Source: Labrys monachus (GTDB lineage: Bacteria; Pseudomonadota; Alphaproteobacteria; Rhizobiales; Labraceae). From it: a stretch of 64,000 bases of DNA. The translations under genes were made by a program, and so were the position numbers. The notes below the pieces were generated by a model. That model was not told the DNA's origin. It saw only the letters and a list, made by a program, of their open reading frames with translations, and searched no databases. Where the stretch lies: assembly GCF_030814655.1 (NCBI RefSeq), contig NZ_JAUSVK010000001.1, positions 167,501 to 231,500 of the forward strand, in the 5' to 3' direction. This document shows, in pieces, positions 13,904 to 29,192 of this stretch; positions within the stretch are counted from its first letter, which is position 1; each line of letters begins with the position of its first letter.

Positions 13904-14833
13904 ATGAGGGTATCTCTACGTCACTTTCGTGTCTTTATCGCAGTTGCGGAAAGTGGCCAGATCTCAAAGGCGGCGGCGGCCTTGTTCACGTCGCAACCCG
14001 CTGTCAGCGAGGCAATCAAGACGCTGGAGACGGATGTCGGCGTCAAGTTGTTCAATCGGACTCCGCGAGGTGTGTCGCTGACCTACGAGGGAGCGATCTT
14101 TCTCGAACACGCTCAAAACGTGTTGGCGACCGCAGTCGATGCGATGCTCGCACCGCAAAAGGTGCGGCGCGACCTGGACGGTGAACTGACGTTGGCTTGC
14201 ACGCACACGGTGGCGGGCTATTTCATCACGCCCCTGCTGTCGCGCTTTGCCAGAATCTTCCCGGGAATCAAGGTGAAACTGGTCGAATTGGAGCGGCCCT
14301 GTATCGAGGATCGGTTGATGTCGGGCGAGCTTGAGGTCGCCGTCTGCCTGCTGTCTCCGCTTGAACATATCAGCGAAATCGAAACCGAGTTACTCGTGCG
14401 ATCGAAGCGGCGGCTCTGGCTGCCGGCCAATCACGCGCTTCTAGACCGAAAGAACGTTGCGCTGCGGGATCTCGAGCACGAACCTTATATCATGCTGACG
14501 ATCGACGATGCCGACCGCACCACTCTCGGCTACTTCGAGAGGGCCGGCTTCGAGCCAAACGTGGTGTTCCGGACCTCGTCGATGGAGGCCATCCGTAACG
14601 TGGTCTCCGAGGGGCATGGCGTGACCGTTCTCTCCGACATGGTCTATCGCCCTTGGTCACTCGACGGCGTGCGGCTGGTCGCGGTCGATCTCATCGATCA
14701 AATTCCCAGCATGGACATCGGGTTGGCCTGGAACAGAGCCTCAGGACTCGGGCGCGATGCGCAATTGTTCTGCGATGTCTGCCGATATGGGGCTGGGATC
14801 GTCGGGTCGGGCATGTTCGCCGAGTCACAATAG
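13904..14833 (+). CDS. LysR-family transcriptional regulator
   Basis: 309 residues. The N-terminal winged helix-turn-helix (about 1-62; SKAAAALFTSQPAVSEAIK) is followed by a LysR substrate-binding domain. Start ATG at 13904 has GGGAG six bases upstream. It is transcribed in the same direction as pxpA and the monooxygenase operon, 95 nt before pxpA, and is the only regulator gene in the island, so it is the likely controller. LysR proteins usually bind T-N11-A sites near their own and target promoters and respond to a pathway metabolite. The inducer cannot be read from the sequence. Confidence 0.93.
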   Translation: MRVSLRHFRVFIAVAESGQISKAAAALFTSQPAVSEAIKTLETDVGVKLFNRTPRGVSLTYEGAIFLEHAQNVLATAVDAMLAPQKVRRDLDGELTLACTHTVAGYFITPLLSRFARIFPGIKVKLVELERPCIEDRLMSGELEVAVCLLSPLEHISEIETELLVRSKRRLWLPANHALLDRKNVALRDLEHEPYIMLTIDDADRTTLGYFERAGFEPNVVFRTSSMEAIRNVVSEGHGVTVLSDMVYRPWSLDGVRLVAVDLIDQIPSMDIGLAWNRASGLGRDAQLFCDVCRYGAGIVGSGMFAESQ

Positions 14834-14928
14834 CCGCCGTATCGGTTTTCCCGAATTTCAGGATCGCACCTTCTGATTATTCATCCGGGTGGGGCTCCTG
14901 TATTTCTGTCTCATCAGGAGGACCGACG

Positions 14929-15720
14929 GTGGGCCGGAAAACGACGATCGACCTGGGCTGCGACATGGGAGAAGCCTACGGCAACTGGCAGTTGGGTAGC
15001 ACCGACGACGCCAAGCTGATGACCATGATCAGCTCGGCCCATATCGCGGCGGGGTTTCATGCCGGTGATCCCAACCTGATGGACCGATCCGTCGCCCTGG
15101 CGCTGTCGAACAAAGTCGCGATCGGTGTGCATCCCGGATTTCGGGATCTTCAAGGGTTCGGCCGTCGCCGCATCGTTCAAAGCACCGAAGAGATGGTGAA
15201 CGACATCGTCTACCAGGTCGGCGCCCTGCGAGAGTTCGTGCATTTGCACGCCGGCACGGTGCAGCACGTCAAGCCGCACGGCGCGCTGTATATGGAGTTG
15301 GCGGCCAACGAGGTCGCCTCGAGGGCCTTCGTCAAGATGATGAGGCGTGTCGCACCGGACGCCTTCATCTACTGCATGGGCGCGTCCGAAACCTACAGAA
15401 TCGCAAAGGAACTCGGACAGCCCGTCGTCCGCGAATTCTACGCGGACCGCGAGTACGATTCGACGGGCAAGATCGTCTTTACGCGCAAGCCGGACAACTA
15501 CAATCCGAAGTCGGCGGCTGACCGGGTGGTGCGGGCGTGCCTCGAAGGCAAGGTCAAGCCTGTCGACGGTCCCGAAATCGAGGTCGGCTTCGAGTCGATC
15601 TGCGTTCATTCCGATACGCCGGGATCCGTCGATCTGCTCGTTGCGATTCGCGAGGCTCTCGGCGCCAATGGCGTTGAAATCCTGGCGCCCGGAGCGGCGA
15701 GAGCGCGCAACGCCACGTAG
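14929..15720 (+). CDS. pxpA: PxpA (LamB/YcsF family), 5-oxoprolinase subunit A-like
   Basis: 263 residues with D-L-G-C-D-M-G-E-A-Y-G, G-F-H-A-G-D-P, H-P-G-F-R-D-L-Q-G-F-G-R-R and K-P-H-G-A-L-Y, all hallmark motifs of PxpA. GTG start at 14929 is chosen because AGGAGG lies about eight bases upstream; the longer frame overlaps lysR. In Bacillus and E. coli PxpA acts with PxpB and PxpC in ATP-dependent hydrolysis of 5-oxoproline. Here pxpB and pxpC lie 8 kb downstream in an operon with biotin enzymes, so the complex may act on a different amide or lactam. A strong hairpin terminator follows. Confidence 0.92.
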   Translation: MGRKTTIDLGCDMGEAYGNWQLGSTDDAKLMTMISSAHIAAGFHAGDPNLMDRSVALALSNKVAIGVHPGFRDLQGFGRRRIVQSTEEMVNDIVYQVGALREFVHLHAGTVQHVKPHGALYMELAANEVASRAFVKMMRRVAPDAFIYCMGASETYRIAKELGQPVVREFYADREYDSTGKIVFTRKPDNYNPKSAADRVVRACLEGKVKPVDGPEIEVGFESICVHSDTPGSVDLLVAIREALGANGVEILAPGAARARNAT

Positions 15721-15850
15721 TCGCATTATGCGAATGCCGGCTCCGCAACTACAAGGTCCTCGGTGGGGCGCCGCCCGAAGGCGCAGGTGACGTCAGGCTC
15801 GGCTTACAGAAGCTTGCACCGAGCCAACACGTCGATACGCAGACTGATGA

Positions 15851-15894
15851 TGTCGCCCAGCCGGCCGCACCGGCTCGGGCGACATTTCTGTTTT
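15851..15894 (+). terminator. terminator after pxpA
   Basis: Long hairpin, TGTCGCCCAGCCGG pairing with CCGGCT and GGGCGACA around a CCGCA loop with one bulged C, followed by TTTCTGTTTT. This is a good factor-independent terminator separating lysR-pxpA from the monooxygenase operon. Confidence 0.85.
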
Positions 15895-16091
15895 GAATGC
15901 AATCTCGACCAAGCCGTCGATGCACTATCTTTTTGCTTTGTGCGAACAAAAATGCGGCAATGCACTCATTTATTCATCGTGGCTTCATAGCGACCATCAC
16001 CGAACTGGTATTTGAAAATACGATTAGACCCGTGCCGCGATCATCTCGTTTACTTGGCGTGCAAGATAACAGGGCGCTGAGAGGATCGAAG
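15895..16091 (+). promoter_or_regulatory. upstream region of the monooxygenase operon with palindrome
   Basis: About 200 bases between the pxpA terminator and the first operon gene. GTATTTGAAAATAC at 16008-16021 has perfect 6-bp arms around GA and lies about 70 bases before the start codon, as an operator might. AT content is higher than in the genes. I cannot assign -35/-10 boxes with confidence, and no clear sigma-54 GG/GC pair is visible. Confidence 0.4.
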
Positions 16092-16802
16092 ATGCCAAGC
16101 AATCCGTTGGTTGCACCGCAGCTCATTGCAAATGCGCGGATGCTCTATCTTGATTGGGTCCCCGAAGATCCGGCGGCCGCCAGAGCTCTCGTTCCGCAAG
16201 AGCTGACACCCGAGGGTCGCGGCTGCGTCTATATCAACCAGTACATCGTCGACGATCCCGCGCAGACATCCAACGGCGGATTGCCGGGAAGTTTCGGGGC
16301 TTACTCGCTGACTTATCTGGGCGTCGATCTCGACGGGCTCGATGCCCAGCCCGGAACGCCAGGGCGTTGGTGGACGCACTACTTCAACAGCTCGCCGAAC
16401 ATGATCGATTACGCGCTGCAGCGCGGCGTTCCTGCAACCTCCGGCGAGACCGTGTTCGAATGGAAGGGCGACGAACTGATCGCGACCACTCTGGTCGGCG
16501 GCAAGCCGCTGATCCGAACCAGCAGCACGGCACGGATCGGCGCCGGCGCGCCCGCCAACGGCCAGCTTCGCTACGTCACCCGCGTCGACGGTGTCCTGAC
16601 CAGCGGTCGCTATCCTTTCGTGATGAAGGCCGCCGCCGAGTTCAAGTGCAACGCGATCGAATTTCTCGACACATCGCATCCGGTCTATGCGCTGCGTCCC
16701 AAGCAGCCTCTCGACGTGACGTTCGGCTTCTATTCGCCGGACATCACCTTCTGCTATCCGGGCGGCGAAGGCCCGATCGACGTCAAACCGCACGGCGTGT
16801 GA
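16092..16802 (+). CDS. acetoacetate decarboxylase-superfamily protein
   Basis: 236 residues from ATG at 16092 (GAGAGGATCGAAG upstream). The overall pattern matches the acetoacetate decarboxylase-like fold: V-P-E-D-P-A-A-A-R-A-L-V-P near residue 20, then Y-I-N-Q-Y, G-S-F-G-A-Y, and P-N-M-I-D-Y-A-L-Q-R-G-V-P. Classical enzymes carry the Schiff-base lysine after a G-[FY]-P-K-K motif; here the aligned stretch is G-V-P-A-T-S-G-E with no lysine. It is therefore unlikely to decarboxylate acetoacetate and may be a lyase, hydratase or binding protein acting on the monooxygenase product. First gene of the operon, 27 nt before the hydroxylase alpha gene. Confidence 0.75.
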   Translation: MPSNPLVAPQLIANARMLYLDWVPEDPAAARALVPQELTPEGRGCVYINQYIVDDPAQTSNGGLPGSFGAYSLTYLGVDLDGLDAQPGTPGRWWTHYFNSSPNMIDYALQRGVPATSGETVFEWKGDELIATTLVGGKPLIRTSSTARIGAGAPANGQLRYVTRVDGVLTSGRYPFVMKAAAEFKCNAIEFLDTSHPVYALRPKQPLDVTFGFYSPDITFCYPGGEGPIDVKPHGV

Positions 16803-16829
16803 ACAGACCCAATTCACGGAGGAGCGACC

Positions 16830-18320
16830 ATGCTCGAACGTTCAGACTGGTATGACCTGGCCCGCGACACGAACTGGACCCCGAAATACGTCCCGGAGGA
16901 AGAGCTGTTTCCGGAAGACTATGCCGGCTCCAGGGGCATCCCGGAACACATCTGGGCGACCTATGACGAGCCCTACAAGGTCACCTATCGCGAATATGTC
17001 GGCATGCAGCGTGAGAAGGATTCGGGCGCCTACTCGGTGAAGGCCGCGCTGGAGCGCATGGATATGTACACCTCGGCGGATCCGGGCTGGATCGCCACGC
17101 TGAAGGAGCATTACGGCGCGGTGTCCGTGGTCGAATACAACGCCGCGCTTCAGAACGCTCGGCTGCTGCGCTTCGGCCGCGCCGGCGGCATGCGCAACAT
17201 GGCGACCTTCGGCATGTTGGACGAAGTCCGTCACGGCCAGATCCAGCTGTACTTCGCCCATGAATATGTGGCGAAGGACCGGCAGTTCGACTGGGCGCAT
17301 CGCTCGATGAACACCAACAATTGGGTCACGCTCGCGGCCCGGCGGTTCTTCGACGATCTGATGATGACGCGCAACGTCATAGATACCTCGCTGGCGATGA
17401 ATTTCTCGTTCGAGACCGGTTTCACCAATCTGCAGTTCATCGGTCTTGCGTCGGACGCGACTCACGCGGGCGATTTCAAATTCGCCAAACTGATTCAGAG
17501 CATCCAGTCCGACGAAGCGCGTCACGCGCAGATCGGCACACCGACGCTCAAGATCCTGATCGAGCAGGGCAAGAAGGCCGATGCTCAGCGCATGGTCGAC
17601 ATCTCGTTCTGGCGCTCGTCGCGCCTGTTCGCGATCCTGACCGGCATTCCGATGGACTACTACCTGCCGCTCGACAAGCGCGAGGGCTCGTTCAAGGAGT
17701 TCATGCAGGAATGGATCGTCACCCAGTTCACGCGGTCGCTCGAGGACCTCGGCCTGGAGAAGCCCTGGTACTGGGACATCTTCATGCGGGATCTCGACGA
17801 GCATCATCACGGCCAGCAGCTCGGCACCTGGTCGTGGCGGCCGACGCTGTGGTGGTCGCCGGCCGCCGGCGTCAGTCCGGACGAGCGCGACTGGCTCGAG
17901 GAGAAGTACCCCGGCTGGAACGACACCTTCGGCAAATGCTGGGACGTCATCACCGAGAATGCCAGGACCGGCCGTTTTGAGAAGACCGTGCCCGGCACGT
18001 TGCCGGTGATCTGCAACGTCTCGCAGAATCCGATCGTCGGCACGCCCGGCAAGACGCTGCAGGACCGTCAGCTCACCTATAACGGCCGCAAGTATCACTT
18101 CGGCTCGGAAGTCGATCAGTGGATCTTCGAGCAGGATCCGCAGCGCTACGCTCGCCACCAGTCGCTGGTCGACCGGTTCCTGTCGGGCAGCATCGAGCCC
18201 GCCAACCTCGAAGGCGTGCTCGCCTATATGGGCCTCGGCGTCATCAGCGACGGCGGCCAGGACGCGCACGACTTCAGCTGGGCCACGGCCAAGACGACCA
18301 AGACGGTCAAGGCTGCTTGA
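16830..18320 (+). CDS. diiron monooxygenase hydroxylase, alpha subunit (TmoA-like)
   Basis: 496 residues, the length of toluene/alkene monooxygenase alpha subunits. All six carboxylate-bridged diiron ligands are present and evenly offset by two from TmoA numbering: Glu102, Glu132 and His135 (DEVRH), Glu195 (F-S-F-E-T-G), Glu229 and His232 (DEARH). The catalytic threonine corresponds to Thr199. In the pocket, the positions equivalent to TmoA Gly103 and Ala106 are Val101 and Asn104, so the natural substrate is probably not toluene. Ribosome site GGAGG precedes the ATG. The protein would hydroxylate or epoxidise a small organic molecule using O2, with electrons from the reductase and Rieske protein encoded downstream. 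Confidence 0.95.
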   Translation: MLERSDWYDLARDTNWTPKYVPEEELFPEDYAGSRGIPEHIWATYDEPYKVTYREYVGMQREKDSGAYSVKAALERMDMYTSADPGWIATLKEHYGAVSVVEYNAALQNARLLRFGRAGGMRNMATFGMLDEVRHGQIQLYFAHEYVAKDRQFDWAHRSMNTNNWVTLAARRFFDDLMMTRNVIDTSLAMNFSFETGFTNLQFIGLASDATHAGDFKFAKLIQSIQSDEARHAQIGTPTLKILIEQGKKADAQRMVDISFWRSSRLFAILTGIPMDYYLPLDKREGSFKEFMQEWIVTQFTRSLEDLGLEKPWYWDIFMRDLDEHHHGQQLGTWSWRPTLWWSPAAGVSPDERDWLEEKYPGWNDTFGKCWDVITENARTGRFEKTVPGTLPVICNVSQNPIVGTPGKTLQDRQLTYNGRKYHFGSEVDQWIFEQDPQRYARHQSLVDRFLSGSIEPANLEGVLAYMGLGVISDGGQDAHDFSWATAKTTKTVKAA

Positions 18321-18348
18321 GCCAACACGTGTACACAGGAGGCCGATC

Positions 18349-18603
18349 GTGGCGTTGTTTCCTTTAGTCTGCAATTTCGAGGGTGATTTCGTGCTGAAAT
18401 TGCTCCCCGTCGACACCGAGCAAACCATGGCCGAGGTCGGCCAGACGGCGGCCGTCAACGCGGTCGGCATTCACATCGCCGACCAGCCCGGCAAGACCAT
18501 CTACGCCCGCAAGGAAGGCGCCGACGCGCCGTTCCCGTTGGACATGAAGTTGTCCGACAGCGGGCTCGAGCCGATGGACTGCGTGAAGTTCTATTTCGCG
18601 TGA
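18349..18603 (+). CDS. diiron monooxygenase, gamma subunit (TmoB-like)
   Basis: 84 residues, GTG start with AGGAGG just upstream. Matches the small ubiquitin-fold gamma subunit of toluene monooxygenases: F-P-L-V-C-N-F-E-G-D-F-V-L-K-L at the start and a C-terminal G-L-E-P-M-D-C-V. It completes the alpha2-beta2-gamma2 hydroxylase. Confidence 0.88.
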   Translation: MALFPLVCNFEGDFVLKLLPVDTEQTMAEVGQTAAVNAVGIHIADQPGKTIYARKEGADAPFPLDMKLSDSGLEPMDCVKFYFA

Positions 18604-18619
18604 GAGCGGAGCAACCACA

Positions 18620-18919
18620 ATGGCGACAATGAAATCACGCAATCTGGTCGGTCCGGTCATTCAGGCCGGAGAGATGGCCGACGCGATCGTCGAGGCCGCG
18701 CAGGACGACAATCCGGGCAAGGAAGTCCTGGTGAGTTCACGCGCGTCGTACATTCGCATCGAACTCGAGGGCGAGTGCATCCTGCGGCGGGAAACGATCC
18801 AGTCCAAGCTGGGTCGTCCGTTTCAGATGAACGAGATCGAACTCAACATGCCGTCGTTCGCGGGGCAGGTCGAGACCAACGACGACTCGATCCGCTTCTA
18901 CTACGCCCAGGTGCTGTAG
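18620..18919 (+). CDS. diiron monooxygenase effector protein (MmoB/DmpM/TmoD family)
   Basis: 99 residues: N-L-V-G-P-V-I-Q-A-G-E-M-A-D-A-I near the N-terminus, and central E-V-L-V-S-S-R-A-S-Y-I-R-I-E with a following R-R-E-T-I. This is the cofactorless regulatory protein that docks on the hydroxylase and tunes O2 activation. It directly follows the gamma gene (16 nt gap), whereas in tmo/xamo operons a Rieske gene lies between them. Confidence 0.9.
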   Translation: MATMKSRNLVGPVIQAGEMADAIVEAAQDDNPGKEVLVSSRASYIRIELEGECILRRETIQSKLGRPFQMNEIELNMPSFAGQVETNDDSIRFYYAQVL

Positions 18920-18959
18920 CGCCCGACACCGACATCCGAACAGTCCGAGAGGGATCACC

Positions 18960-19946
18960 ATGCCCGAAGTCGCACAACTGCGTCCGCTCAAGACCTGGAG
19001 CCATCTCGCGGCTCAACGTCGCCGGCCCAGCGAATACGAAATCGTCTCGACCAATCTGCTGTGGCACACCCGCGACCCCGATCACCCGTGGGACGTCGAC
19101 GGCTTCATGGGCGACTGGTACACCAAGAACCTGTTCGGCTCGCCCCTGAAGCACAAGGACTGGAACGCCTTCCGCGATCCGGACGAGACGGTATACCGCA
19201 CCTACAACATCCAGCAGGACGGGCAGGAGTCTTACGTCGACGGCCTGCTCGAGCAATTCGCCCGCGACGAGCACGACGCTGCATTGCCGGCGGCCTGGGT
19301 GCCGGTGCTGGCGAAACTCTACACGCCGCTGCGCTACCCGCTGCACGCCATCCAGATGAACTGCGGCTACCTCGCCAGCATCTCCCCGGCCAGCACGATT
19401 TCGGGTGCAGCGATGTTCCAGGGCGGCGATGCGTTGCGCTGGCTGTCGCGCATCGCCTATCGGACGCGCGAACTCGCCAATGCTCATCCGGATGCCGGCT
19501 TCGCCCGCGACGAACGCAAGAACTGGGAAACCGCGCCGGAATGGCAGGGCTTCCGCGAACTCGCCGAGAAGATGCTGGCGACCTACGACTGGGGCCAGAA
19601 CTTCTTCGTGATGAACACGATCTTCAAGCCGGCGCTCGAGGAAGCCGCCCTGAAGCAGCTAGCACTCGGCGCCCGGCGCAATCAGGACGCGCTGCTGCCG
19701 CTGCTGACGGAAGCGCAGCTCCGCGACAGCGCGCGCTCGCAGCGTTGGACCTCGGCGCTGATCGAAATGGCGATGCAGGAGCCGTCGAACAGCACCGTGC
19801 TGAACGACTGGGAGAAGCAGTGGGTGCCGCTCGCCGACAAGGCGATCAGCACCTATTGCGACGCCATCCCGGACAATCCGACCGCGAAGAAGACCGCGCT
19901 GGCCAATATGCGGCAGTATTGGGCAAGCGTCGGGCTGGCCGCCTAG
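18960..19946 (+). CDS. diiron monooxygenase hydroxylase, beta subunit (TmoE-like)
   Basis: 328 residues, ATG after a GAGAGGGATCACC region. Starts with L-R-P-L-K-T-W-S-H-L-A-A-Q-R-R-R-P-S-E-Y-E, the typical N-terminus of TmoE/TouE beta subunits. It has the helical ferritin-like body, including Y-P-L-H-A-I-Q-M-N and D-W-G-Q-N-F-F-V-M-N. The diiron ligands of the alpha subunit are absent, as expected for the non-catalytic paralogue. It forms the hydroxylase core with alpha and gamma. Confidence 0.93.
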   Translation: MPEVAQLRPLKTWSHLAAQRRRPSEYEIVSTNLLWHTRDPDHPWDVDGFMGDWYTKNLFGSPLKHKDWNAFRDPDETVYRTYNIQQDGQESYVDGLLEQFARDEHDAALPAAWVPVLAKLYTPLRYPLHAIQMNCGYLASISPASTISGAAMFQGGDALRWLSRIAYRTRELANAHPDAGFARDERKNWETAPEWQGFRELAEKMLATYDWGQNFFVMNTIFKPALEEAALKQLALGARRNQDALLPLLTEAQLRDSARSQRWTSALIEMAMQEPSNSTVLNDWEKQWVPLADKAISTYCDAIPDNPTAKKTALANMRQYWASVGLAA

Positions 19947-19965
19947 TAGCGCAGAGGGAGCGGCC

Positions 19966-20973
19966 GTGTTTCCGATCGAGATCGCAGACGGCAGGGGCAG
20001 GTTCGACGTCGGGTCCGACGACGTACTGCTCCGCGCCGCTCTGCGGGCCGGGCTGGGCTTTCCCTACGAATGCAACGCCGGCGCCTGCGGCAGCTGCAAA
20101 TTTCAGCTGATCTCGGGCGATCTCGTCGTGCCGACGGATCTCGCGCCGGCCGAAACGGAGCGGGATCGTGCCCGCGGGCGCTATCTCGCCTGCCGCGTCT
20201 CGGCGCGTAGCGCCTGCACCATCAAGATCCGCACCGACGCCACCTATGTGCCGTGCCACGCGCCGCGGCGCTTCGAGGCGCAGCTCGCCGAGAAGACCAC
20301 GCTGACGTCCGACATGAGCGAGTTCGTTCTCGTGTCGGAGACGCCGGCCGCCTTTCTGGCCGGGCAATACGCGCTGCTTTCGCTCGCAGCCGATGGCCCG
20401 AAGCGCGTGTACTCGATGGCGAACGTGCCGAACGACCGCGGCGAATGGCGATTCATCGTCAAGCGCGTGCCGGGCGGCGCGTTCTCCGATCCGCTGTTTC
20501 GGCTGCCGATCGGAACGAACATCCACATCGACGGACCTTATGGCACCGCCTTCGCACGGCCGGAGATCGACCGCGACGTCGTGTGCATCGCGGGCGGGGC
20601 CGGATTTTCGCAGATGCTGTCGGTGGCGCGCGGTCTTGCCGGGTCCGGCCGGATGCAATCGCGAACCCTGCGGTTCTACTACGGCGGTCGCAGATCGATC
20701 GATGTGCCGAGCCTGCAGCAGATTTCGGATCTCGCGTCGCAAGTCGGCGACCTTCGCCAGACCGTCGTCGTGTCCGATCCGGACGATGAGCCCCGATGGA
20801 ATGGCCCGACCGGCTTCGTCCACGACGTCCTCGGTCGCGACTTCACGGATGGCTGGGCCGACCATGAGTACTATCTGTCCGGCCCGCCGCCGATGGTCGA
20901 CGCCACGTTGCGCATGCTGGTGATGGAAAAGCAGATTCCGCACGAGCGCATCCACTTCGATCGTTTCTTCTGA
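19966..20973 (+). CDS. NADH:monooxygenase reductase (2Fe-2S, FAD)
   Basis: 335 residues, GTG start 20 nt after the beta gene. An N-terminal plant-type ferredoxin domain has Cys36, Cys41, Cys44 (CNAGACGSC) and Cys76. A ferredoxin-NADP+-reductase-like domain follows, with the flavin motif R-V-Y-S-M-A-N and the nucleotide-binding G-G-A-G-F-S-Q-M-L. It closely resembles TmoF/XamoF. It transfers electrons from NADH to the Rieske protein. Confidence 0.93.
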   Translation: MFPIEIADGRGRFDVGSDDVLLRAALRAGLGFPYECNAGACGSCKFQLISGDLVVPTDLAPAETERDRARGRYLACRVSARSACTIKIRTDATYVPCHAPRRFEAQLAEKTTLTSDMSEFVLVSETPAAFLAGQYALLSLAADGPKRVYSMANVPNDRGEWRFIVKRVPGGAFSDPLFRLPIGTNIHIDGPYGTAFARPEIDRDVVCIAGGAGFSQMLSVARGLAGSGRMQSRTLRFYYGGRRSIDVPSLQQISDLASQVGDLRQTVVVSDPDDEPRWNGPTGFVHDVLGRDFTDGWADHEYYLSGPPPMVDATLRMLVMEKQIPHERIHFDRFF

Positions 20974-20984
20974 ACGGAACCAGA

Positions 20985-21933: not shown

Positions 21934-23315
21934 CCATTCGTTCGCTGCTCATCGCCAATCGGGGTGAGATCGCGGTCCGCATCATCAAGGCCGCGAAGGC
22001 GCTCGGCATCCGCACCGTCCAGGTGCACAGCGCCGCCGATGCTGACATGCTCGCCGTAAAGCTGGCGGATGAGGCGATCGACATCGGCCCGCCGGCGGCC
22101 AAGAAGTCTTATCTCAGCATTCCCGCGGTCATCAACGCGGCCAAGCGCGCCGGCGTCGATGCGATTCATCCGGGCTACGGCTTCCTCTCCGAGAACGGCG
22201 ATTTTGCCGATGCGGTCGAAGCCGCGGGGATGATTTTCATCGGCCCGAAAGGCGACGCGATCCGGCTGCTCGGAGATAAAGTTGCGGCGCGCGAAGTCGC
22301 CAAGAAAGCCGGCGTGCCGACGGTGCCGGGCAGTGACGGCCGTGTAGACGGCATTGTAGCTGCGCGGAAGGTCGCCGAGACGACGGGCTTTCCGATCATG
22401 ATCAAGGCGGCGGCCGGCGGCGGCGGTCGCGGCATCCGCATCGCCAACAATATGGCCGAGTTGGAGAGCCAATTTCCGATGGCGTCGGCCGAGGCGCTTG
22501 CCGCGTTCGGTGACGGCGGCTTGTATCTGGAGAAAGTCATTTCCCGCGCCCGCCATGTCGAGGTGCAGATCCTCGGCGATGGCGAGAACGTCGTGCATTG
22601 CTACGAGCGCGAATGCTCGCTGCAGCGTCGCCGCCAGAAGGTGTGGGAGGAAGCCCAGGCGTTCCTGCTGCCAGCCCGCGTGCGCGAGAAGCTCTGCGCC
22701 AGCGCCGTCGCGCTCGCGCGTGAAGTGAAATATCGCGGCGCCGGCACCGTCGAATATCTCTACGACGACGAGACGCAGGACTTCTACTTCATCGAGGTGA
22801 ATACCCGTATCCAGGTCGAACACCCGGTCACCGAGATGATCACCGGCATCGATCTCGTGCAGGAAATGATCCGCGTCGCTGGCGGCGCCAGACTGTCGGT
22901 CACGCAGAACGATATCGTGCCGCGCGGCCATGCCATCGAGTGCCGCATCAATGCCGAGGACGCGACTCGCGACTTCATGCCCGCGCCGGGCCAGATCGGC
23001 CGGCTCAGCATCCCCGAAGGCGAAGGCATCCGTTTCGATACGATGCTGTACGCCGGCTATTCGATCCCGCCGTTCTACGACTCGCTGCTCGGCAAGCTGA
23101 TCGTCTGGGCCGAAACCCGCGATGCATGTCTCGACCGATTAAAGGGGGCGCTGCAGCAGCTCGAGATCGGCGGCGTGCCGACGACGGTGCCGCTGCATCT
23201 GGCGCTCGCCGGCGACGACAGCGTACGCCGCGGCGCGTTTCATACGCGCTTTCTCGAAGCCTGGCTCGAGGCCGAATTCAGCCGACAACTCCAATCCAAG
23301 TCCGAGGTGGCGTGA
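21930..23315 (+). CDS. biotin carboxylase (AccC-like)
   Basis: 461 residues. The N-terminal pre-ATP-grasp domain reads L-I-A-N-R-G-E-I-A-V-R-I-I. The ATP-grasp has a glycine-rich loop at about 160-169 (AAAGGGGRGI) and E-V-N-T-R-I-Q-V-E-H-P-V-T-E near 290; a C-terminal biotin-carboxylase domain follows. It carboxylates the biotin on the adjacent carrier with ATP and bicarbonate. The gene next to it is not a classical acetyl-CoA carboxyltransferase but PxpB, with which its stop codon overlaps. Confidence 0.93.
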   Translation: MTIRSLLIANRGEIAVRIIKAAKALGIRTVQVHSAADADMLAVKLADEAIDIGPPAAKKSYLSIPAVINAAKRAGVDAIHPGYGFLSENGDFADAVEAAGMIFIGPKGDAIRLLGDKVAAREVAKKAGVPTVPGSDGRVDGIVAARKVAETTGFPIMIKAAAGGGGRGIRIANNMAELESQFPMASAEALAAFGDGGLYLEKVISRARHVEVQILGDGENVVHCYERECSLQRRRQKVWEEAQAFLLPARVREKLCASAVALAREVKYRGAGTVEYLYDDETQDFYFIEVNTRIQVEHPVTEMITGIDLVQEMIRVAGGARLSVTQNDIVPRGHAIECRINAEDATRDFMPAPGQIGRLSIPEGEGIRFDTMLYAGYSIPPFYDSLLGKLIVWAETRDACLDRLKGALQQLEIGGVPTTVPLHLALAGDDSVRRGAFHTRFLEAWLEAEFSRQLQSKSEVA

Positions 23316-24190
23316 TGGGCATTCGCTATTCGTTCGGAGGCGACGAACATCTGTTCGTCGAGTGCAGCGAGGAGATGTCGCTCGACGCGTTTTTCAAGAG
23401 CCTGTCGATGACCAACGGCATCCGCGACAGCGAGATCAAGGGCATCACGGAAATCTGTCCGGCCAACGCCTCGTTTCAGGTCAAGTTCGATCCAGACATC
23501 ATCAAGCCCGACGATCTGCTGCGCGAGGTGAAGTCGATCGAGGGCGCCGCCGCCAAATCCGAGCCGGTGATCCGGACCCGCATCATCGAAATTCCGGTGC
23601 TCTACAACGATCCGTGGACGCACGAGACGCTCATGCGGTTCCGCGAGCGCCATCAGGATCCGACGAGTACCGATCTCGAATACGCCGCGCGGATCAATCA
23701 CCACGCCACGGTCGACGATTTCATCGCAGCCCATGCGGGTTCGCCGTGGTTCGTCTCAATGGTCGGCTTCGTCGCCGGTCTGCCGTTCATGTATCAGATG
23801 GTCGACCGGCAGCGGCAGATCGAGGTGCCGAAATATCTGCGCCCGCGCACCGACACGCCGAAGCTCACCATCGGCCACGGCGGCTGCTTCGGCTGCATCT
23901 ATTCGGTGCGCGGCGCCGGCGGCTATCAGATGTTCGGCGTCACGCCGATGCCGATCTTCGATCCGACCCAGACGACGAGCTATCTACGGGACTTCATGGT
24001 GTTCTTCCGGCCAGGAGACATCGTGAAGTTCAAACCGATCGACCGCCCGGCCTATGACCAGGCGGTCGAGGAGGTCGATAACGGCCAGTTCGCGCCGCCG
24101 ATTCGCGACGTCAGCTTCGACCTGCGCGAATTCTCCAAGGACATTGACGGCTACAACGCCAAGCTGGAGGGCGTTCTCAATGGCCATTAA
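23315..24190 (+). CDS. pxpB: PxpB/KipI family (AHS1) protein
   Basis: 291 residues; the ATG at 23315 overlaps the TGA of the biotin carboxylase gene. The allophanate-hydrolase-subunit-1/KipI region includes V-E-I/I-P-V-L-Y-N-type strands (I-I-E-I-P-V-L-Y), V-G-F-V-A-G-L-P-F-M-Y, L-T-I-G-H-G-G-C-F-G and G-G-Y-Q-M-F-G-V-T-P-M. In urea carboxylase the homologous AHS1/AHS2 segment is the carboxyltransferase part. In PxpABC it is a subunit of 5-oxoprolinase. It overlaps the next gene by 11 bp. Confidence 0.9.
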   Translation: MGIRYSFGGDEHLFVECSEEMSLDAFFKSLSMTNGIRDSEIKGITEICPANASFQVKFDPDIIKPDDLLREVKSIEGAAAKSEPVIRTRIIEIPVLYNDPWTHETLMRFRERHQDPTSTDLEYAARINHHATVDDFIAAHAGSPWFVSMVGFVAGLPFMYQMVDRQRQIEVPKYLRPRTDTPKLTIGHGGCFGCIYSVRGAGGYQMFGVTPMPIFDPTQTTSYLRDFMVFFRPGDIVKFKPIDRPAYDQAVEEVDNGQFAPPIRDVSFDLREFSKDIDGYNAKLEGVLNGH

Positions 24191-25154
24191 GGTCGTGCAT
24201 CACGGACTCGCCACCACCGTTCAGGATCTCGGACGTCCCGGTTACTTTCATCTCGGCATTCCGGTCGGCGGCGCGATGGATCGCTACGCGATGCGCGCCG
24301 CCAATCTCCTGGTCGGCAACGACGAGGGCGCGGCTGGTCTTGAAGCCGTGTTCATGGGCCCGCAGCTCGAGTTCACGGCCGACGCATTGGTGGCCGTCAC
24401 CGGGGCCGATATGCCGGTCAAGATCGACGGCGTCGACCAGCCCGGCTGGACGGCGCTCAAGGTCAAGGCCGGCCAGAAACTGTCGTTCGACTTCCTCAAC
24501 TCCGGCGCGCGCATTTGCATCGCCGTCAGCGGCGGCATCGACGTTCCGGTGGCGCTCGGAAGCCGCTCGACCTATCCGATCGGCGCGCTCGGAGGCTACA
24601 AAGGCCGGCCGATCCAGGCGGGCGACGAACTGCCGGTCGGCGAGGGCAGCCTAGCGAGCGAGGGCCGCAGCGTCGATCCAGGCCTGCGGCGCGTACCCGG
24701 CAAACTCGCCGAACTCCGCGTCCTGCCGGGCCTGTATTGGCATCGACTGACGGAGGCCGCGAAGGAGACCTTCTTCGCCGACGAATGGAAGGTCGCCAAC
24801 GAGGCGGACCGGATGGGCTATCGCTTCAAGGGCGGCCGCAAGCTCGACCTCGTCGAGCGCGAGCAGCCGTTCGGCGCGGGCTCCGATCCCTCGAACATCG
24901 TCGATAGCTGCTACCCGTACGGATCGATCCAGGTGCCCGGCGGAACGGAGCCGATCATCCTTCATCGCGACGCGGTGTCCGGTGGTGGTTACTTCATGGT
25001 CGGCACGGTGATCGCCGCCGACATGGACCTGATCGGCCAACTGCAGCCGCACACGCCCACCCGCTTCGTCAAAGTCGACATGGATCAGGCGCTCGCCGCC
25101 CGGGCCGACGAGGCCGTCCGCCTTGAACGCCTTCGTGTAACCTTGAAGTCATAA
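24180..25154 (+). CDS. pxpC: PxpC/KipA family (AHS2) protein
   Basis: 324 residues from the ATG at 24180. AHS2/KipA motifs: T-T-V-Q-D-L-G-R-P-G-Y near the start, then G-G-A-M-D-R-Y-A-M-R-A-A-N, A-V-S-G-G-I-D-V-P, and S-N-I-V-D-S-C-Y-P-Y-G-S-I-Q-V-P-G-G near residue 240. It pairs with PxpB. Together with the carrier and the biotin carboxylase, the four genes supply every domain of a urea-carboxylase-type enzyme on separate chains. Confidence 0.92.
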   Translation: MAIKVVHHGLATTVQDLGRPGYFHLGIPVGGAMDRYAMRAANLLVGNDEGAAGLEAVFMGPQLEFTADALVAVTGADMPVKIDGVDQPGWTALKVKAGQKLSFDFLNSGARICIAVSGGIDVPVALGSRSTYPIGALGGYKGRPIQAGDELPVGEGSLASEGRSVDPGLRRVPGKLAELRVLPGLYWHRLTEAAKETFFADEWKVANEADRMGYRFKGGRKLDLVEREQPFGAGSDPSNIVDSCYPYGSIQVPGGTEPIILHRDAVSGGGYFMVGTVIAADMDLIGQLQPHTPTRFVKVDMDQALAARADEAVRLERLRVTLKS

Positions 25155-25168
25155 CTGGGGGACGGAAC

Positions 25169-26236
25169 ATGACACTTCGCTCAACTCTACTGACCGCTTC
25201 GATCGTCGCGTTTATCGCTGGTGCGGCTCATGCTGAAGATTGGTTCCCCTACAAGGCGATGAAGACCGAGCCGCCGTTTGCCACAGACGGCAAACAGGAA
25301 GAGGTTTCGTACATGCCGCTGGCGAAGGCCAGCCAACCTTGGAAGATCTGCGTGTCGTTTCCGCACATGAAGGACGCCTACTGGCTCGGCGTCGATTACG
25401 GCGTTGTCGACGAGGCCAAGCGGCTCGGCGTGTCGATGAATCTGCTCAACGCCGGCGGCTACACCGAGCTCAACACCCAGATTTCCCAGATCGAGGACTG
25501 CGTCGCCAACGGAGCCCAGGCCGTGGTGATCGGCGCGATCTCGTTCGATGGCCTGAACAATCTGGTGACCGAGATCAACAAGAAGGGCATCCCAGTCATC
25601 GACGTCGTCAACGGCATTTCGTCGCCGAACGTCACCGCCAAGTCGCTGGTGTCGTTCTACACGATGGGGCAATCGGCCGGCGAGTACCTGGCCAAGAAAC
25701 ACCCGGCCGGCAGTAAGGAAGTAAAGGTCGGCTGGTTCCCGGGCCCGGCGGGCGCCGGTTGGGTCGAAGCCGCCAACAGGGGCTTCCTCGACGCGGTCAA
25801 AGGCTCCGCGCTGAAAGTCCTCGACGCCAAATATGGTGACACCGGCAAGGAGGTGCAGCAGAAGCTGGTCGAGGACGTGCTGCAGGCTAATCCCGACATC
25901 GGCTATGTCGCGGGCACCGCTGTTACTGCAGAAGCTGCGCAGGGCGTCATTCGCGAGCGCGGCCTGCAGGGCAAGGTCGATCTGATGGCGTTCTATATGA
26001 CGCCCGGCGTCTATGAAGGCATTAAGCGCGGCTTCATCCTCGCGGCGCCTGCGGACTCGATGGTTATTCAGGGGCGTATCGCGATCGATCAGGCCGTGCG
26101 TATCCTGGAGAAGAAAGACTACATCAAGCATGTCGGTCCGAAGATCTTCGTCGTGGACCAGCAGAACGTGAACAGCGTCCCCCGCACCAGCATCCTTCCG
26201 CCGGACGACTTCAAGCCGGTCTTCAAGGTGAACTAA
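25169..26236 (+). CDS. periplasmic sugar/TorT-type substrate-binding protein
   Basis: 355 residues with a clear signal peptide (about 1-22, cleavage after A-H-A before E-D-W). A type-1 periplasmic binding fold (K-I-C-V-S-F-P-H-M-K-D-A-Y-W-L-G-V-D-Y-G) has the sequence style of TorT, the TMAO-binding protein, and of LacI-type ABC binding proteins. GGGGG precedes the ATG. It is the first gene of a complete ABC importer whose other parts follow directly, so it most likely binds the pathway substrate. A polar or nitrogen-containing ligand is a guess from TorT similarity. Confidence 0.9.
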   Translation: MTLRSTLLTASIVAFIAGAAHAEDWFPYKAMKTEPPFATDGKQEEVSYMPLAKASQPWKICVSFPHMKDAYWLGVDYGVVDEAKRLGVSMNLLNAGGYTELNTQISQIEDCVANGAQAVVIGAISFDGLNNLVTEINKKGIPVIDVVNGISSPNVTAKSLVSFYTMGQSAGEYLAKKHPAGSKEVKVGWFPGPAGAGWVEAANRGFLDAVKGSALKVLDAKYGDTGKEVQQKLVEDVLQANPDIGYVAGTAVTAEAAQGVIRERGLQGKVDLMAFYMTPGVYEGIKRGFILAAPADSMVIQGRIAIDQAVRILEKKDYIKHVGPKIFVVDQQNVNSVPRTSILPPDDFKPVFKVN

Positions 26237-26280
26237 CTGGCCAGCCGGCTCGGCTTCGGTTGAACCGGCACTGATTGGTG

Positions 26281-27819
26281 ATGATCGTGAGTGTCACGGG
26301 CGAACCGCTTCTGGTCGAGATGTCGGGAATCTCCAAGGAGTTTCCCGGCGTCAAAGCCCTGTCCGCCGTCGATTTCCAGCTCAAACGTGGCGAAGTCCAT
26401 GTGCTGTTCGGCGAAAACGGCGCAGGCAAATCGACGCTCATATCCATCCTGTCCGGTGTGTATCGCCCGACATCCGGCACCTTGCGCGTGGCCGGCGAGG
26501 CGGTGCACTTCCGATCGGTGCAGGACGCGCGCAAGGCCGGCATCGGCACCGTGTTTCAGGAGCTTTCGCTGGTGCCGACGCTCACCGTGTTCGAGAACGT
26601 GCACCTCGGAGAGGAACTGATGCGCGGGCCGCTGGTCGACCGCAAGGCGATGGAGCGCACCACACGCGAGCTGATCGACACGCTCGGCTTCGATATCGAC
26701 GTCCGCCAGCCGGTGTCGCGGTTGTCACGCGCGCAGCAGCAGATGGTCGAGATCGCCAAGGCGCTCCACGCCAAGGCGCGCGTGCTGATCCTGGACGAGC
26801 CGACCGCCTCGCTGACGGAGCGCGAGACCGAGCGGCTTTTCGAATTCATCCGGCAAGCGCGGCAGCGCGGCGTCGGCATCATCTATATCTCGCACCGCAT
26901 CCAGGAATTCGCCAAGATCGCAGATCGCATCACCGTGCTGCGCGACGGCAAGCTGATCGCCACCGTCGATCAGCCGTTCACGTCGGAAGACGCGCTCGTC
27001 ACCCTGATGATGGGCCGCGCGATCGACAAGGTCTATCCGCATATTGGCCGCCAGCCGGATGGCGAGACCGTGCTGTCGCTCCGCGGCATTCGCGCCGTCG
27101 GCGTCAACGGCGTCGATATCGATGTGCGGGCCGGCGAAGTGCTCGGCGTCGCCGGCTTGGTCGGCTCGGGCAAATCGCGGGTGTGGCGGAGTATCCTCGG
27201 CCTGCAGCCGCTGGAGCGCGGAACCGTCGCCTTGTTCGGCGATGACGTCAGCGGCCTGCCGACGCGTGAACTGCTGCGCCGCGGCGTGTTTTATCTGTCG
27301 CCGGATCGCAAGTCCGAAGGCCTCGTGCTGTCGGCGTCGTCGCGCGACAATCTCCGCCTCGATCTGCTCGATCGCAGCGACCTTTCCGGGCCGCTTGGTC
27401 TGCGATCGCCGCGCCGCATGCGTGCTGCCGCGGATGCGATCGGCGCGCGCGTCGATCTCGCGCCGCGTTCGCTGCCGAAGATGGTGGCGGCGCTGTCCGG
27501 CGGCAATCAGCAGAAGGTGCTGTTCGGCAAGGGGCTCGCCCGGGACCGTCGCCTCTACATCTTCGACGAGCCGACCATCGGCGTCGACATGGGCACGCGC
27601 AGCCAGCTCTATCTGCTGATCCGCGATCTCGCCGAGGCCGGCAAAGCCGTGGTGATCATCTCGTCCGATCTGCCGGAGGTGATGCATCTGGCTCATCGGC
27701 TGCTGGTGTTTTCCAACGGCAGGATTTCGGCCGAACTCGAGGGAGACGACCTCGTCGAGGACGTCGTGCTTCGGCATTTCTTCACGGATTCGAGGGAGCC
27801 CATCGATGAGTGCGCCTGA
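26281..27819 (+). CDS. ABC transporter ATPase, RbsA/MglA type
   Basis: 512 residues with two ABC domains. The first has Walker A GENGAGKST, signature L-S-R-A-Q-Q-Q and Walker B V-L-I-L-D-E-P-T-A-S. The second has Walker A-like GLVGSGKSR and signature L-S-G-G-N-Q-Q-K. The degenerate second half is typical of the carbohydrate-uptake-2 subfamily. The ATG at 26281 is preferred over the in-frame GTG one codon earlier. It overlaps the permease gene by 14 bp. Confidence 0.93.
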   Translation: MIVSVTGEPLLVEMSGISKEFPGVKALSAVDFQLKRGEVHVLFGENGAGKSTLISILSGVYRPTSGTLRVAGEAVHFRSVQDARKAGIGTVFQELSLVPTLTVFENVHLGEELMRGPLVDRKAMERTTRELIDTLGFDIDVRQPVSRLSRAQQQMVEIAKALHAKARVLILDEPTASLTERETERLFEFIRQARQRGVGIIYISHRIQEFAKIADRITVLRDGKLIATVDQPFTSEDALVTLMMGRAIDKVYPHIGRQPDGETVLSLRGIRAVGVNGVDIDVRAGEVLGVAGLVGSGKSRVWRSILGLQPLERGTVALFGDDVSGLPTRELLRRGVFYLSPDRKSEGLVLSASSRDNLRLDLLDRSDLSGPLGLRSPRRMRAAADAIGARVDLAPRSLPKMVAALSGGNQQKVLFGKGLARDRRLYIFDEPTIGVDMGTRSQLYLLIRDLAEAGKAVVIISSDLPEVMHLAHRLLVFSNGRISAELEGDDLVEDVVLRHFFTDSREPIDECA

Positions 27820-28843
27820 CGCAGTGGATAGCGCCTCCGCTGCGACGCCCGGCCTATCCGCGATCAACGCCGTGAAGACCCTGTTTCTCAAGGTCGGCGT
27901 GCTGCCGTTTTTCCTGGCTGCCGCGCTGATCGTGTTCTCGCTGGTCTCAGGTAATTTCCTGACCGTCAGTAATCTGACGAATGTGGCACGGCAGTCGGTC
28001 TATCTGATCCTGGTGTCGCTCGGGCAGATGGTGGTGCTGATCACCGGCGGCTTCGATCTTGCGGTCGGCACCGCCATCGCGCTCACCTCGGTGGTCAGCG
28101 CCCTCGCCATGGTTGCGTTGGCGGCGATGATGCCCGGCCACGTGTGGGCTGTGATCATGCTCGGCAGCCTCGCCGGCATCGGTGCCGCGCTGGTGATCGG
28201 CTGCGTCAACGGCGTCGGCATAGCGCAGTTCAGCGTGTCTCCATTCATCATGACGCTCGGCGTGCAATCGGTCGGCGCCGGGCTGGCGCTGTATCTGACC
28301 GGAGGCGTGCCGGTGTCGCGCCTACCGCTCGACTTCGGCAACATTTTCGGCTTCGGGCGTATCGTCGGCGTGCCGGTCCCGGTCGTCGTCGCGCTGACAG
28401 CCATTGCGGCGACCTGGGTGATGATGAATCGGACCCGGCTCGGCACGCAGATCTGCGCGGTGGGCGGCAACATCAAAGCCGCGCATCTATCGGCGATCAA
28501 CACCAAGAAGGTGTTGTTCCTGGCCTATGTGTTCAGTGCGGTGCTCGCCTCGCTCGCGGGTTTGTTGCTCACGGCGCGCGTTGAGTCTGGAGAAACCAAT
28601 CTCGGCGGCTCGATGGCGCTGGAATCGATTGCAGCCTGTGTCATCGCCGGCGTGTCGCTGCGTGGCGGAATCGGTCGCGTCGAGAATGTCGTGCTCGGTG
28701 CGTTCTTCATCGCGCTCGTTCAGAACGGGATGAACATTGCCCAGATCGGCTCCTACCTGCAAATGGTTCTACTCGGTGGGCTGCTGATCCTAGCCGTGGT
28801 CATCGATCAATTGCGCTATCGCATGCTGATCGGCTCGACATGA
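27806..28843 (+). CDS. ABC transporter permease, RbsC type
   Basis: 345 residues, about eight to ten hydrophobic helices, with the family signatures G-G-F-D-L-A-V-G-T and A-V-G-G-N-I-K-A-A-H-L-S-A-I and a C-terminal G-V-S-L-R-G-G-I-G. One gene only, so the permease is a homodimer as in ribose-type systems. With 25169-27819 it forms a complete importer. Confidence 0.92.
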   Translation: MSAPDAVDSASAATPGLSAINAVKTLFLKVGVLPFFLAAALIVFSLVSGNFLTVSNLTNVARQSVYLILVSLGQMVVLITGGFDLAVGTAIALTSVVSALAMVALAAMMPGHVWAVIMLGSLAGIGAALVIGCVNGVGIAQFSVSPFIMTLGVQSVGAGLALYLTGGVPVSRLPLDFGNIFGFGRIVGVPVPVVVALTAIAATWVMMNRTRLGTQICAVGGNIKAAHLSAINTKKVLFLAYVFSAVLASLAGLLLTARVESGETNLGGSMALESIAACVIAGVSLRGGIGRVENVVLGAFFIALVQNGMNIAQIGSYLQMVLLGGLLILAVVIDQLRYRMLIGST

Positions 28844-28979
28844 GCGCGGCTCGCTTTAGCATTTGCGGTGACCGCAACATCCGCCTTCGGGCCGGCCTGA
28901 TCGAGCTCGCTATCCTATTTTGTGCGATCCTGTCGACTAACGCTCGTTAACAGAAATCCATGAACCTCTTGGAGCAGAC

Positions 28980-29192
28980 ATGCCTTTCATTCGTGTAGAC
29001 TGGTTTCCCGGCCGGACCCTCGAACAGAAGCGCGAGCTTGCGGAGGTTCTGACCCGCGAATTCGCGCGGATCGCAAAATGCAAGCCGGAAACGATCAATT
29101 TCATCTTCACGGAAGTTTCGCGGGAGGATTGGGGCCGCAACGGCAAGCTGTTCTGCGACGCCTACGAATATGAGAATGATCAAAAGGCATGA
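28980..29192 (+). CDS. 4-oxalocrotonate tautomerase-family protein
   Basis: 70 residues, length and pattern of 4-OT-like tautomerases: the second residue is proline (MPFIRVDWFPGRTLEQKREL), which becomes the catalytic N-terminal base after Met removal. TTGGAG lies six bases before the ATG. It follows the permease by 136 nt and probably ends the operon. A tautomerase or hydratase step on an enol or oxo-acid from the pathway fits, but the substrate is unknown. Confidence 0.85.
   Translation: MPFIRVDWFPGRTLEQKRELAEVLTREFARIAKCKPETINFIFTEVSREDWGRNGKLFCDAYEYENDQKA

Follow-up and report, generated by a model that had tools for sequence, protein, structure and literature searches.

We found that a gene cluster of Labrys monachus joins a toluene-type diiron monooxygenase to a split, biotin-dependent Pxp/urea-carboxylase-type module, and that unrelated bacteria share this pairing, a sign of an undescribed catabolism of nitrogen-containing ring compounds. 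The cluster lies at 13904-29192 of a 64-kb stretch (the window, to which unprefixed coordinates refer) of the 6.92-Mb single-contig genome; its open reading frame list, Pfam and NCBIfam give 17 intact genes, all on the plus strand. The parts belong to known families and their genomic association is well supported, while the functions assigned below are predictions from sequence. With a confidence that falls just short of even, we propose a two-stage catabolic pathway in which the oxygenase would make a lactam from a small N-heteroaromatic compound and the biotin- and ATP-dependent module would open this lactam towards succinate semialdehyde. A sequence-only reading of the window had named the same genes, rightly as intact and in one direction, under a count of fifteen, although its own list also comes to 17.

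Conservation of the pairing

Relatives of the hydroxylase alpha subunit TmoA were collected by a scan of genome contigs with TmoA, and the best 80 of 342 were used. The window protein falls in a single clade of 20 rows (Shimodaira-Hasegawa approximate likelihood-ratio support 100 among 84 rows; 100/99 in a rooted tree of 50 hand-chosen rows, where long branches were flagged for L027, L173, L174, L175 and L177). The other 19 members (loci L009-L027) are from Gordonia, Nocardia, Amycolatopsis, Saccharopolyspora, Streptomyces, Haloechinothrix, two further actinobacterial metagenome-assembled genomes (MAGs) and a Sneathiellales MAG. A further 61 toluene-type loci (L028-L088) served as comparison; three others (L006-L008) are counted among the 64 non-clade TmoA rows used below and are too short to show Pxp genes.

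The hydrolase subunit gene pxpA adjoins clade tmoA in 19 of 20 loci (not L010). The full set of PxpA, biotin carboxyl carrier protein (BCCP), biotin carboxylase (BC), PxpB and PxpC is found in 18: the window, 16 actinobacterial loci and the Sneathiellales locus (L027, as extended in L095); L026 is cut by a contig end. A gene resembling acetoacetate decarboxylase (ADC) is present in all 20, though in L017 only as a 34-residue piece, and a tautomerase gene in 17. None of PxpA, BCCP, BC, PxpB, PxpC or the ADC-like protein was found at any of the 61 other loci, 50 of which reach at least 5 kb and 47 at least 9 kb beyond tmoA. Related loci are not independent in these counts, and some end at contig or stretch limits. 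The sequence-only reading had named lack of conservation elsewhere as one of two findings that would count against it; the neighbourhood is conserved, across phyla.

The usual actinobacterial order is ADC-like-TmoA-B-D-E-F-C, then PxpA-BCCP-BC-PxpB-PxpC, with the tautomerase after TmoC or PxpC. The Sneathiellales MAG has ADC-like-TmoA-B-D-E-F-C, a glutathione S-transferase (GST), a reversed LysR gene, PxpA, an SRPBCC protein, TorT-RbsA-RbsC, BCCP-BC-PxpB-PxpC and an aldehyde dehydrogenase. Among 297 genomes from the order of the window genome, the clade occurs in this genome only; three others have relatives of 58-59% identity in the canonical gene order. A neighbour family in 11 of the 19 other clade loci has two whole members that are PucR-type regulators by Pfam, and a third, cut short, that gave no match; a major facilitator superfamily transporter and a flavin reductase are further actinobacterial neighbours that we could not place. 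L017 and L026 gave no TmoF match, and with only the short ADC-like match the L017 copy (Saccharopolyspora shandongensis) is perhaps incomplete. In Amycolatopsis jejuensis (L021, 18944) a BioB-like match (36%) lies near the oxygenase-linked set.

Composite origin of the window cluster

The window cluster is a composite, with the oxygenase block inserted between PxpA and BCCP of a rhizobial-type stand-alone operon. The window PxpB matches 89 plasmid records, 48 of them at 80-90% identity, and those that were read (by annotation, or by tblastn where unannotated) carry a divergent LysR gene and PxpA-BCCP-BC-PxpB-PxpC, most with TorT-RbsA-RbsC behind. Their hosts are Rhizobiaceae, Roseobacteraceae/Paracoccaceae, Azospirillum and Diaphorobacter. 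We assembled 31 stand-alone loci as a non-random sample (genomes of the window's order, best PxpB plasmid matches, TorT-positive plasmids at 60% or above and two actinobacterial paralogues), having dropped L156, with a binding protein and transporter and no Pxp gene, and L098 and L099, with no BC. No TmoA or oxygenase block was found at any of the 31. PxpC matches at E 1e-110 or better occur in 23 of 199 genomes sampled from the order to which the window genome belongs.

Apart from the oxygenase block, the stand-alone operon has the same LysR, PxpA, BCCP, BC, PxpB and PxpC, and often the same importer. It differs in spacing: the PxpA-BCCP gap is 12-71 bp in 12 annotated stand-alone operons and 5970 bp, with seven genes inside, in the window. 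Identities of the window proteins to four stand-alone operons are 68-82% (BC), 66-85% (PxpB), 68-85% (PxpC) and 56-59% (PxpA), against 52-56, 55-65, 54-56 and 37-41% to five actinobacterial oxygenase-linked loci. For three Rhizobiaceae stand-alone operons, PxpB reaches 83-85% and PxpC 76-85%. Over the larger samples, the window PxpA is 53-62% identical to 23 of the 31 stand-alone copies, 39-44% to the other 8 and 35-42% to 18 other oxygenase-linked copies. The tautomerase contrasts with the module in being 74-82% identical to six Gordonia/Nocardia homologues.

In a tree built from BC+PxpB+PxpC of 18 oxygenase-linked and 31 stand-alone loci (49 rows; long branch flagged for L143), the oxygenase-linked modules occupy three places: one for the 16 actinobacteria, with support of only 89/77, one for the Sneathiellales MAG and one for the window, which sits within a rhizobial group (a 5-row set, 100/99). 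Forcing the 18 together is rejected (log-likelihood 401 lower; approximately unbiased test, AU, p 4.2e-55). PxpA alone also falls in three places (AU p 1.4e-66), and in its tree the window copy, on a long branch, is nearest to L132 of its own order (100/94) and not to the Rhizobium plasmids; L095, L098, L099 and L143 were likewise flagged there.

One oxygenase clade is thus paired with three module lineages, through repeated joining or through replacement; the pairing is kept either way, which is strong evidence of a shared pathway. The module trees refine the earlier view of the cluster as a catabolic island: it combines an oxygenase block with a stand-alone operon and is not one ancestral unit. 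Transfer of the whole unit into the Labrys genome was considered and rejected, as the module lineages differ. The window TmoA is the deepest branch of its clade in the rooted tree, so an actinobacterial donor of the oxygenase is not shown.

The oxygenase block

All six components of toluene 4-monooxygenase are encoded, as the sequence-only reading had recognised: the TmoA-like alpha subunit (16830-18320, PF02332), TmoB-like gamma subunit (18349-18603, PF06234), TmoD-like effector (18620-18919, PF02406), TmoE-like beta subunit (18960-19946, PF02332), TmoF-like reductase (19966-20973, Fer2, FAD_binding_6 and NAD_binding_1) and, as the last gene of the block, a TmoC-like Rieske ferredoxin (20985-21320, PF00355). 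The order A-B-D-E-F-C departs from the canonical A-B-C-D-E-F. TmoC follows F (or E where F was not found) in the window and in all 19 other clade loci, whereas the remaining toluene-type loci with B, C and D matches have C between B and D.

The window TmoA aligns over 492 residues to toluene/o-xylene monooxygenase (ToMO, 1t0q) and keeps the diiron ligands as E102, E132, H135, E195, E229 and H232, the counterparts of what we take to be E104, E134, H137, E197, E231 and H234 in toluene monooxygenase numbering. Several positions that presumably line the pocket (ToMO 100, 103, 110, 192, 193 and 266) separate the clade from the 64 other rows. Position 100 is V in 20/20 clade rows against 1/64, position 103 is V in 20/20 against 0/64, position 110 is Q in 19/20 against 0/64, and position 193 (query 191) is N in 20/20 against 0/64, where all have T. 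Position 192 is A in 18 of 19 clade rows and L in all 64 others, with M in the window; position 266 is Y or W in 19 of 19 and W in all 64 others, with S in the window. F196 and F205 are kept in all TmoA rows and F176 in all but one, a pattern that would suit a small aromatic substrate.

The enzyme thus resembles toluene 4-monooxygenase and ToMO (TmoABCDEF, TouABCDEF) in its six components, alpha-subunit alignment and diiron ligands, and differs in its own clade outside the canonical rows, its gene order, its altered positions 100, 103, 110 and 193, and the absence of an adjoining catechol or phenol pathway in the window. Elsewhere in the genome a second Phenol_Hydrox-family gene pair lies at C1:1872451-1876100; one member is only 27% identical to TmoA, so we take the pair for a different diiron monooxygenase. 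Ordinary toluene-monooxygenase-type TmoA (60%) also occurs on large plasmids of the Mimosa-associated Cupriavidus taiwanensis and Paraburkholderia phenoliruptrix/sabiae.

The biotin/Pxp module and the importer

PxpA, a LamB-YcsF hydrolase subunit (14929-15720; PF03746, 273 bits), probably starts at the GTG at 14929 as read from the DNA, and passes the subfamily model NF003814 (267.6, cut-off 226). The remaining module genes are BCCP (21691-21933, PF00364, with an EVMK motif), AccC-like BC (21930-23315; PF02786, PF00289 and PF02785; NF009471 747.3, cut-off 686; 82% to Pararhizobium qamdonense), the carboxyltransferase C-D domain protein PxpB (23315-24190, PF02682) and the carboxyltransferase A-B domain protein PxpC (24180-25154, PF02626). 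The biotin motif E-[V/I]-M-K is present in 48 of 49 BCCP sequences, including that of the window; in L153 the pattern match fell elsewhere.

PxpA, PxpB and PxpC are families shared with 5-oxoprolinase. The window departs from the biotin-free 5-oxoprolinase set in encoding BCCP, with its biotin lysine motif, and BC between PxpA and PxpB, and in having PxpB and PxpC below the 5-oxoprolinase cut-offs (TIGR00370 66.7, cut-off 145.55; NF045499 217.9, cut-off 500); PxpC passes the general 5-oxoprolinase/urea-amidolyase model TIGR00724 (265.8, cut-off 230.2). The part of the source describing the Corynebacterium glutamicum pxpTABC set gives it without biotin carboxylase or BCCP (PMC13274462). With urea carboxylase and urea amidolyase the module shares BC, BCCP and carboxyltransferase domains, and differs in being split over four genes, in the presence of PxpA and in a BC that passes the AccC-type model instead. 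The best NCBIfam model for PxpB is urea carboxylase, under its cut-off; BC, PxpB and PxpC match parts of TIGR02712 as separate proteins with 514.3, 109.4 and 228 bits, far under the cut-off of 1303.85. ATP-dependent caprolactamase CapAB, as far as part of its description goes, also opens a lactam with ATP and has two subunits of hydantoinase/oxoprolinase type (PMC8453981).

One plasmid record annotates its PxpA as 'lactam utilization protein LamB', and LamB/YcsF is a lactam-utilisation protein in Aspergillus. The amide-bond chemistry assigned to the module by the sequence-only reading agrees with the module type, for which amide or lactam opening would fit.

The importer comprises a TorT/RbsB-like periplasmic binding protein (25169-26236; PF13407; TorT model NF008185 431.6 bits, cut-off 200; TIGR02955 304, cut-off 310), an RbsA-like ABC ATPase (26275-27819; PF00005 in two stretches) and an RbsC-like permease (27806-28843; PF02653). 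Of the 31 stand-alone loci, which lack the oxygenase, 20 carry a TorT-like gene of at least 40% identity; the actinobacterial oxygenase-linked loci gave no match to TorT. The importer belongs to the stand-alone operon, so it more likely takes up the lactam than the oxygenase substrate; the sequence-only reading had expected the imported compound to be oxygenated afterwards. The LysR-type regulator (13904-14833; LysR_substrate, HTH_1) is 43-46% identical to the divergent LysR of the four compared stand-alone operons.

A second biotin/Pxp module was seen in the same genome at C1:4549394-4550344, with PxpC 70% identical to the window copy and no TmoA match in the 18 kb around it (L130).

The ADC-like protein and the tautomerase

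The ADC-like protein (16092-16802, with a likely ATG start at 16092 read from the DNA) scores 15 bits (E 0.018) against the Pfam ADC model, under its cut-off of 29.8; when E values up to 1 are admitted, 14 of the 16 members give a match, the best at 4.3e-05. Modelled by AlphaFold2 together with 15 relatives (pLDDT 89), the window protein was placed by Foldseek among ADC-fold structures: all 24 matches at E <= 0.001 are such entries (MppR, the Streptomyces bingchenggensis aldolase-dehydratase, Swit_4259 and ADC), with E about 1e-11 and TM-scores of 0.55-0.67 to MppR/ADC structures. A profile search of PDB sequences with the ADC-like family found none.

Acetoacetate decarboxylase depends on a catalytic lysine pair (PKK). 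In the aligned column, 16 of 16 ADC-like members have no lysine (P-[A/T/V]-x); the alignment holds 16 of the 20 clade members, as L012, L017, L021 and L022 were not called as separate genes. Among 14 comparator loci for PF06314, of which L167 and L171 yielded an identical protein, PKK was seen in 9; a filter removed the other 5. The placement of this column rests on MAFFT, the hhalign match of ADC-like to ADC being weak. Without a lysine at this column the protein is unlikely to act as a Schiff-base decarboxylase, and we rejected that role; the earlier label 'decarboxylase-like' therefore holds for the fold and not for the catalytic residue. A relative on a plasmid of Nostoc sp. ATCC 53789 (L103; 54%), also lysine-less (GVPAT), lies near dihydroorotase and dienelactone-hydrolase genes, with no annotated oxygenase in the surrounding 24.7 kb.

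The tautomerase (28980-29192) is of the 4-oxalocrotonate tautomerase (4-OT) superfamily. The N-terminal proline (MP- start) is present in 17 of 17 sequences, and the window protein scores below the curated 4-OT models (PRK00745 65.9, cut-off 80; DmpI 47.8, cut-off 70; TIGR00013 38.7, cut-off 56.9).

Neighbours of the stand-alone operon

Three kinds of neighbour of the stand-alone operon bear on function. Genes for gamma-aminobutyrate (GABA) transaminase (at least 72%) and succinate-semialdehyde dehydrogenase (SSADH, at least 64%) are found together in 5 of 31 loci (L104, L131, L151-L153), a count that includes L104, the source of both references; SSADH alone is found in one, L142 on a plasmid of Rhizobium sp. 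CIAT894. A molybdenum hydroxylase of the xanthine-dehydrogenase family (at least 64%) is found in another 5 (L132, L138, L140, L143, L144), including L143, the source of the reference, and L140, which is cut by the stretch end; three of the five genomes belong to the window's order, the others being a Sulfitobacter and a Diaphorobacter. The background was gauged in 8 genomes. They contain 6 SSADH copies at 60% or above, one of which adjoins the operon; the hydroxylase subfamily, at 70% or above, is found in 2 of the 8, and both of its copies adjoin the operon. Behind the L142 operon come genes for SSADH, carbonic anhydrase and biotin synthesis (BioB), as though the operon carried its own supply of biotin and bicarbonate.

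A reaction using bicarbonate and biotin would agree with the carbonic anhydrase and biotin genes, and a C4 lactam with GABA transaminase plus SSADH. Molybdenum hydroxylases are a known route from an N-heterocycle carbon to a lactam carbonyl, and the one beside the stand-alone operon looks like an alternative front end. From these neighbours we infer that the module opens a lactam and that the oxygenase is another such front end. The Sneathiellales locus has an SSADH-like gene (61%) about 0.6 kb after PxpC. Upstream of the operon on the Pararhizobium qamdonense plasmid (L101) lie genes for an Asp/Glu racemase, an amidohydrolase, a leucyl aminopeptidase and an FAD monooxygenase, a set that presumably resembles nicotinate/2,5-dihydroxypyridine degradation.

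Proposed pathway and alternatives

In the pathway we propose, each reaction and the substrate are predicted from gene content. TmoABDEFC would use O2 and NADH to hydroxylate a small N-heteroaromatic next to the nitrogen, and the hydroxy-heterocycle would be a lactam by tautomerism; the 4-OT-type tautomerase and the lysine-less ADC-fold protein may act in isomerisation or an adjoining step. TorT/RbsA/RbsC probably import the lactam. BC, BCCP and PxpB/PxpC, with ATP, bicarbonate and biotin, would then carboxylate the lactam amide on nitrogen, and PxpA would hydrolyse the activated ring, with loss of CO2 and ammonia, towards succinate semialdehyde. If the lactam is unsaturated, the opened imine or enamine would lose ammonia to give succinate semialdehyde, and so no transaminase would be needed. 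Pyrrole is our guess for the substrate because the end product is C4, with indole and pyridine as alternatives. Rather doubtful is the wider idea that this is an undescribed aerobic ring opening of N-heteroaromatics, driven to succinate semialdehyde by biotin-dependent N-carboxylation and not by hydrolysis of a phosphorylated lactam, and that the ring-opening half is a plug-in that takes diiron oxygenase or molybdenum hydroxylase front ends.

Several observations weigh against the proposed pathway. The substrate is not evident from any gene; no Pxp gene lies within reach at L010; 20 of the 31 stand-alone loci have none of SSADH, GABA transaminase or the hydroxylase in the stretch read; and SSADH adjoins the oxygenase-linked set in only 1 of 20 loci. 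An HpaB-type flavin monooxygenase in 4 of the 19 other clade loci, and a second PxpB/PxpC pair (23-33% identical, on the opposite strand) in L009, L011, L013, L015 and L025, could point to a different or broader substrate. The importer may serve a different ligand, because its binding protein passes the TorT model and the stand-alone operon on an Azospirillum thermophilum plasmid (L154) has genes for trimethylamine N-oxide reductase (torA) and a NapC/NirT cytochrome upstream; this is the sole locus seen with torA near the TorT-like protein. GST and tautomerase genes also adjoin an ordinary toluene monooxygenase, and the tautomerase is thus perhaps left over from aromatic catabolism.

A possible though less probable alternative is that the halves belong together and act on a larger or different amide. 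Indole, for example, could pass through oxindole to 2-aminophenylacetate, pyridine could pass through 2-pyridone and yield a C5 semialdehyde, or the oxygenase could strip the side chain from an N-substituted pyrrolidone, leaving a saturated lactam to be opened to GABA. Toluene monooxygenases oxidise indole, the GABA transaminase genes at the five stand-alone loci fit a saturated gamma-lactam, and the HpaB-type gene, with an amidase gene cluster adjoining 3 of the 19 clade loci, suits a different amide. Against this, no aromatic ring-cleavage dioxygenase was found among the selected neighbours run through Pfam, and in the Sneathiellales stretch, which has SSADH, GABA transaminase was not found.

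It is unlikely that the biotin module carboxylates a carbon of a ketone-like oxygenase product in place of an amide. That would account for BC and BCCP, which lie outside the C. glutamicum pxpTABC set (in the part of PMC13274462 noted above), and for the ADC-fold neighbour; it sits badly with the urea-carboxylase carboxyltransferase region as best match of PxpB, the 5-oxoprolinase/urea-amidolyase model of PxpC, the amide-hydrolase subunit PxpA, the GABA-pathway neighbours and the missing decarboxylase lysine. We consider it equally improbable that the actinobacterial cluster is biosynthetic or detoxifying and that the window copy keeps that role: several hosts belong to genera known for natural products, whereas both proteobacterial versions have an importer and LysR, one has an SSADH-like neighbour, and no biosynthetic genes were found among the same selected neighbours.

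Least probable is that insertion sequences joined two unrelated functions in the window, as the flanking transposase genes, the 371- and 370-bp spacers, the hairpin after PxpA and the differing origins of the two halves might suggest; chance or such co-location was rejected, the full set being conserved in 18 loci, among them 16 actinobacterial loci and a Sneathiellales MAG, over three module lineages and at none of the 61 other toluene-type loci.

Our literature search, which left subscription journals largely outside and returned many off-subject matches, found, among the papers listed, no published account of a toluene-type oxygenase combined with a Pxp/biotin module, none linking YcsF with toluene monooxygenase and none characterising a split biotin-dependent Pxp operon; this is in line with the earlier statement that no characterised pathway has this set. 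Part of one source on Dechloromonas aromatica treats toluene monooxygenase genes and a cluster for urea carboxylase and allophanate hydrolase in different sections, under different gene numbers and without linking them (PMC2907700). If the proposed pathway is right, a function would be assigned to an operon common on rhizobial plasmids, the split, biotin-dependent one of Pxp/urea-carboxylase type, and the toluene-type diiron monooxygenases would gain a new clade and role.

Transcription and surroundings

Intergenic gaps are -14 to 40 bp in 12 of 16 cases, in keeping with the earlier description of mostly overlapping or closely spaced genes; the oxygenase block does not conform, with 371 bp between PxpA and the ADC-like gene and 370 bp between TmoC and BCCP. 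The other wide gaps are 95 bp 3' of LysR and 136 bp before the tautomerase. A strong terminator-like hairpin with a T-rich tail follows PxpA on the plus strand (15849-15886; folding of 15835-15905 gives -34 kcal/mol and z -5.1, and none of 200 shuffles was equally stable). It makes one transcript across the cluster doubtful and suggests separate transcription of PxpA and the oxygenase in the window; with the gaps of about 370 bp it argues against a single transcript there, a further point against one pathway. It also goes some way towards the second finding that the sequence-only reading had named against itself, separate transcription of the two modules. A pattern scan was uninformative (1 promoter-like site against 3.4 expected; 11 terminator-like against 10.7) and missed this bulged hairpin, which folding found. 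An Rfam search of 11000-33000 gave no matches, and a repeat search over 10500-33500 gave nothing readable as an insertion mark.

Transposase genes flank the cluster, at 12014-13708 on one side and at 29624-30487 and 30660-32021 on the other. Three pairs of transposase genes in the window are 100% identical (within 8380-10607; 29624-30487/53714-54577; 39019-40506/56306-57793), and one copy directly adjoins the cluster. The region is recently active and rich in insertion sequences; IS91-, IS66- and Mu-type genes and integrase genes lie further along the window.

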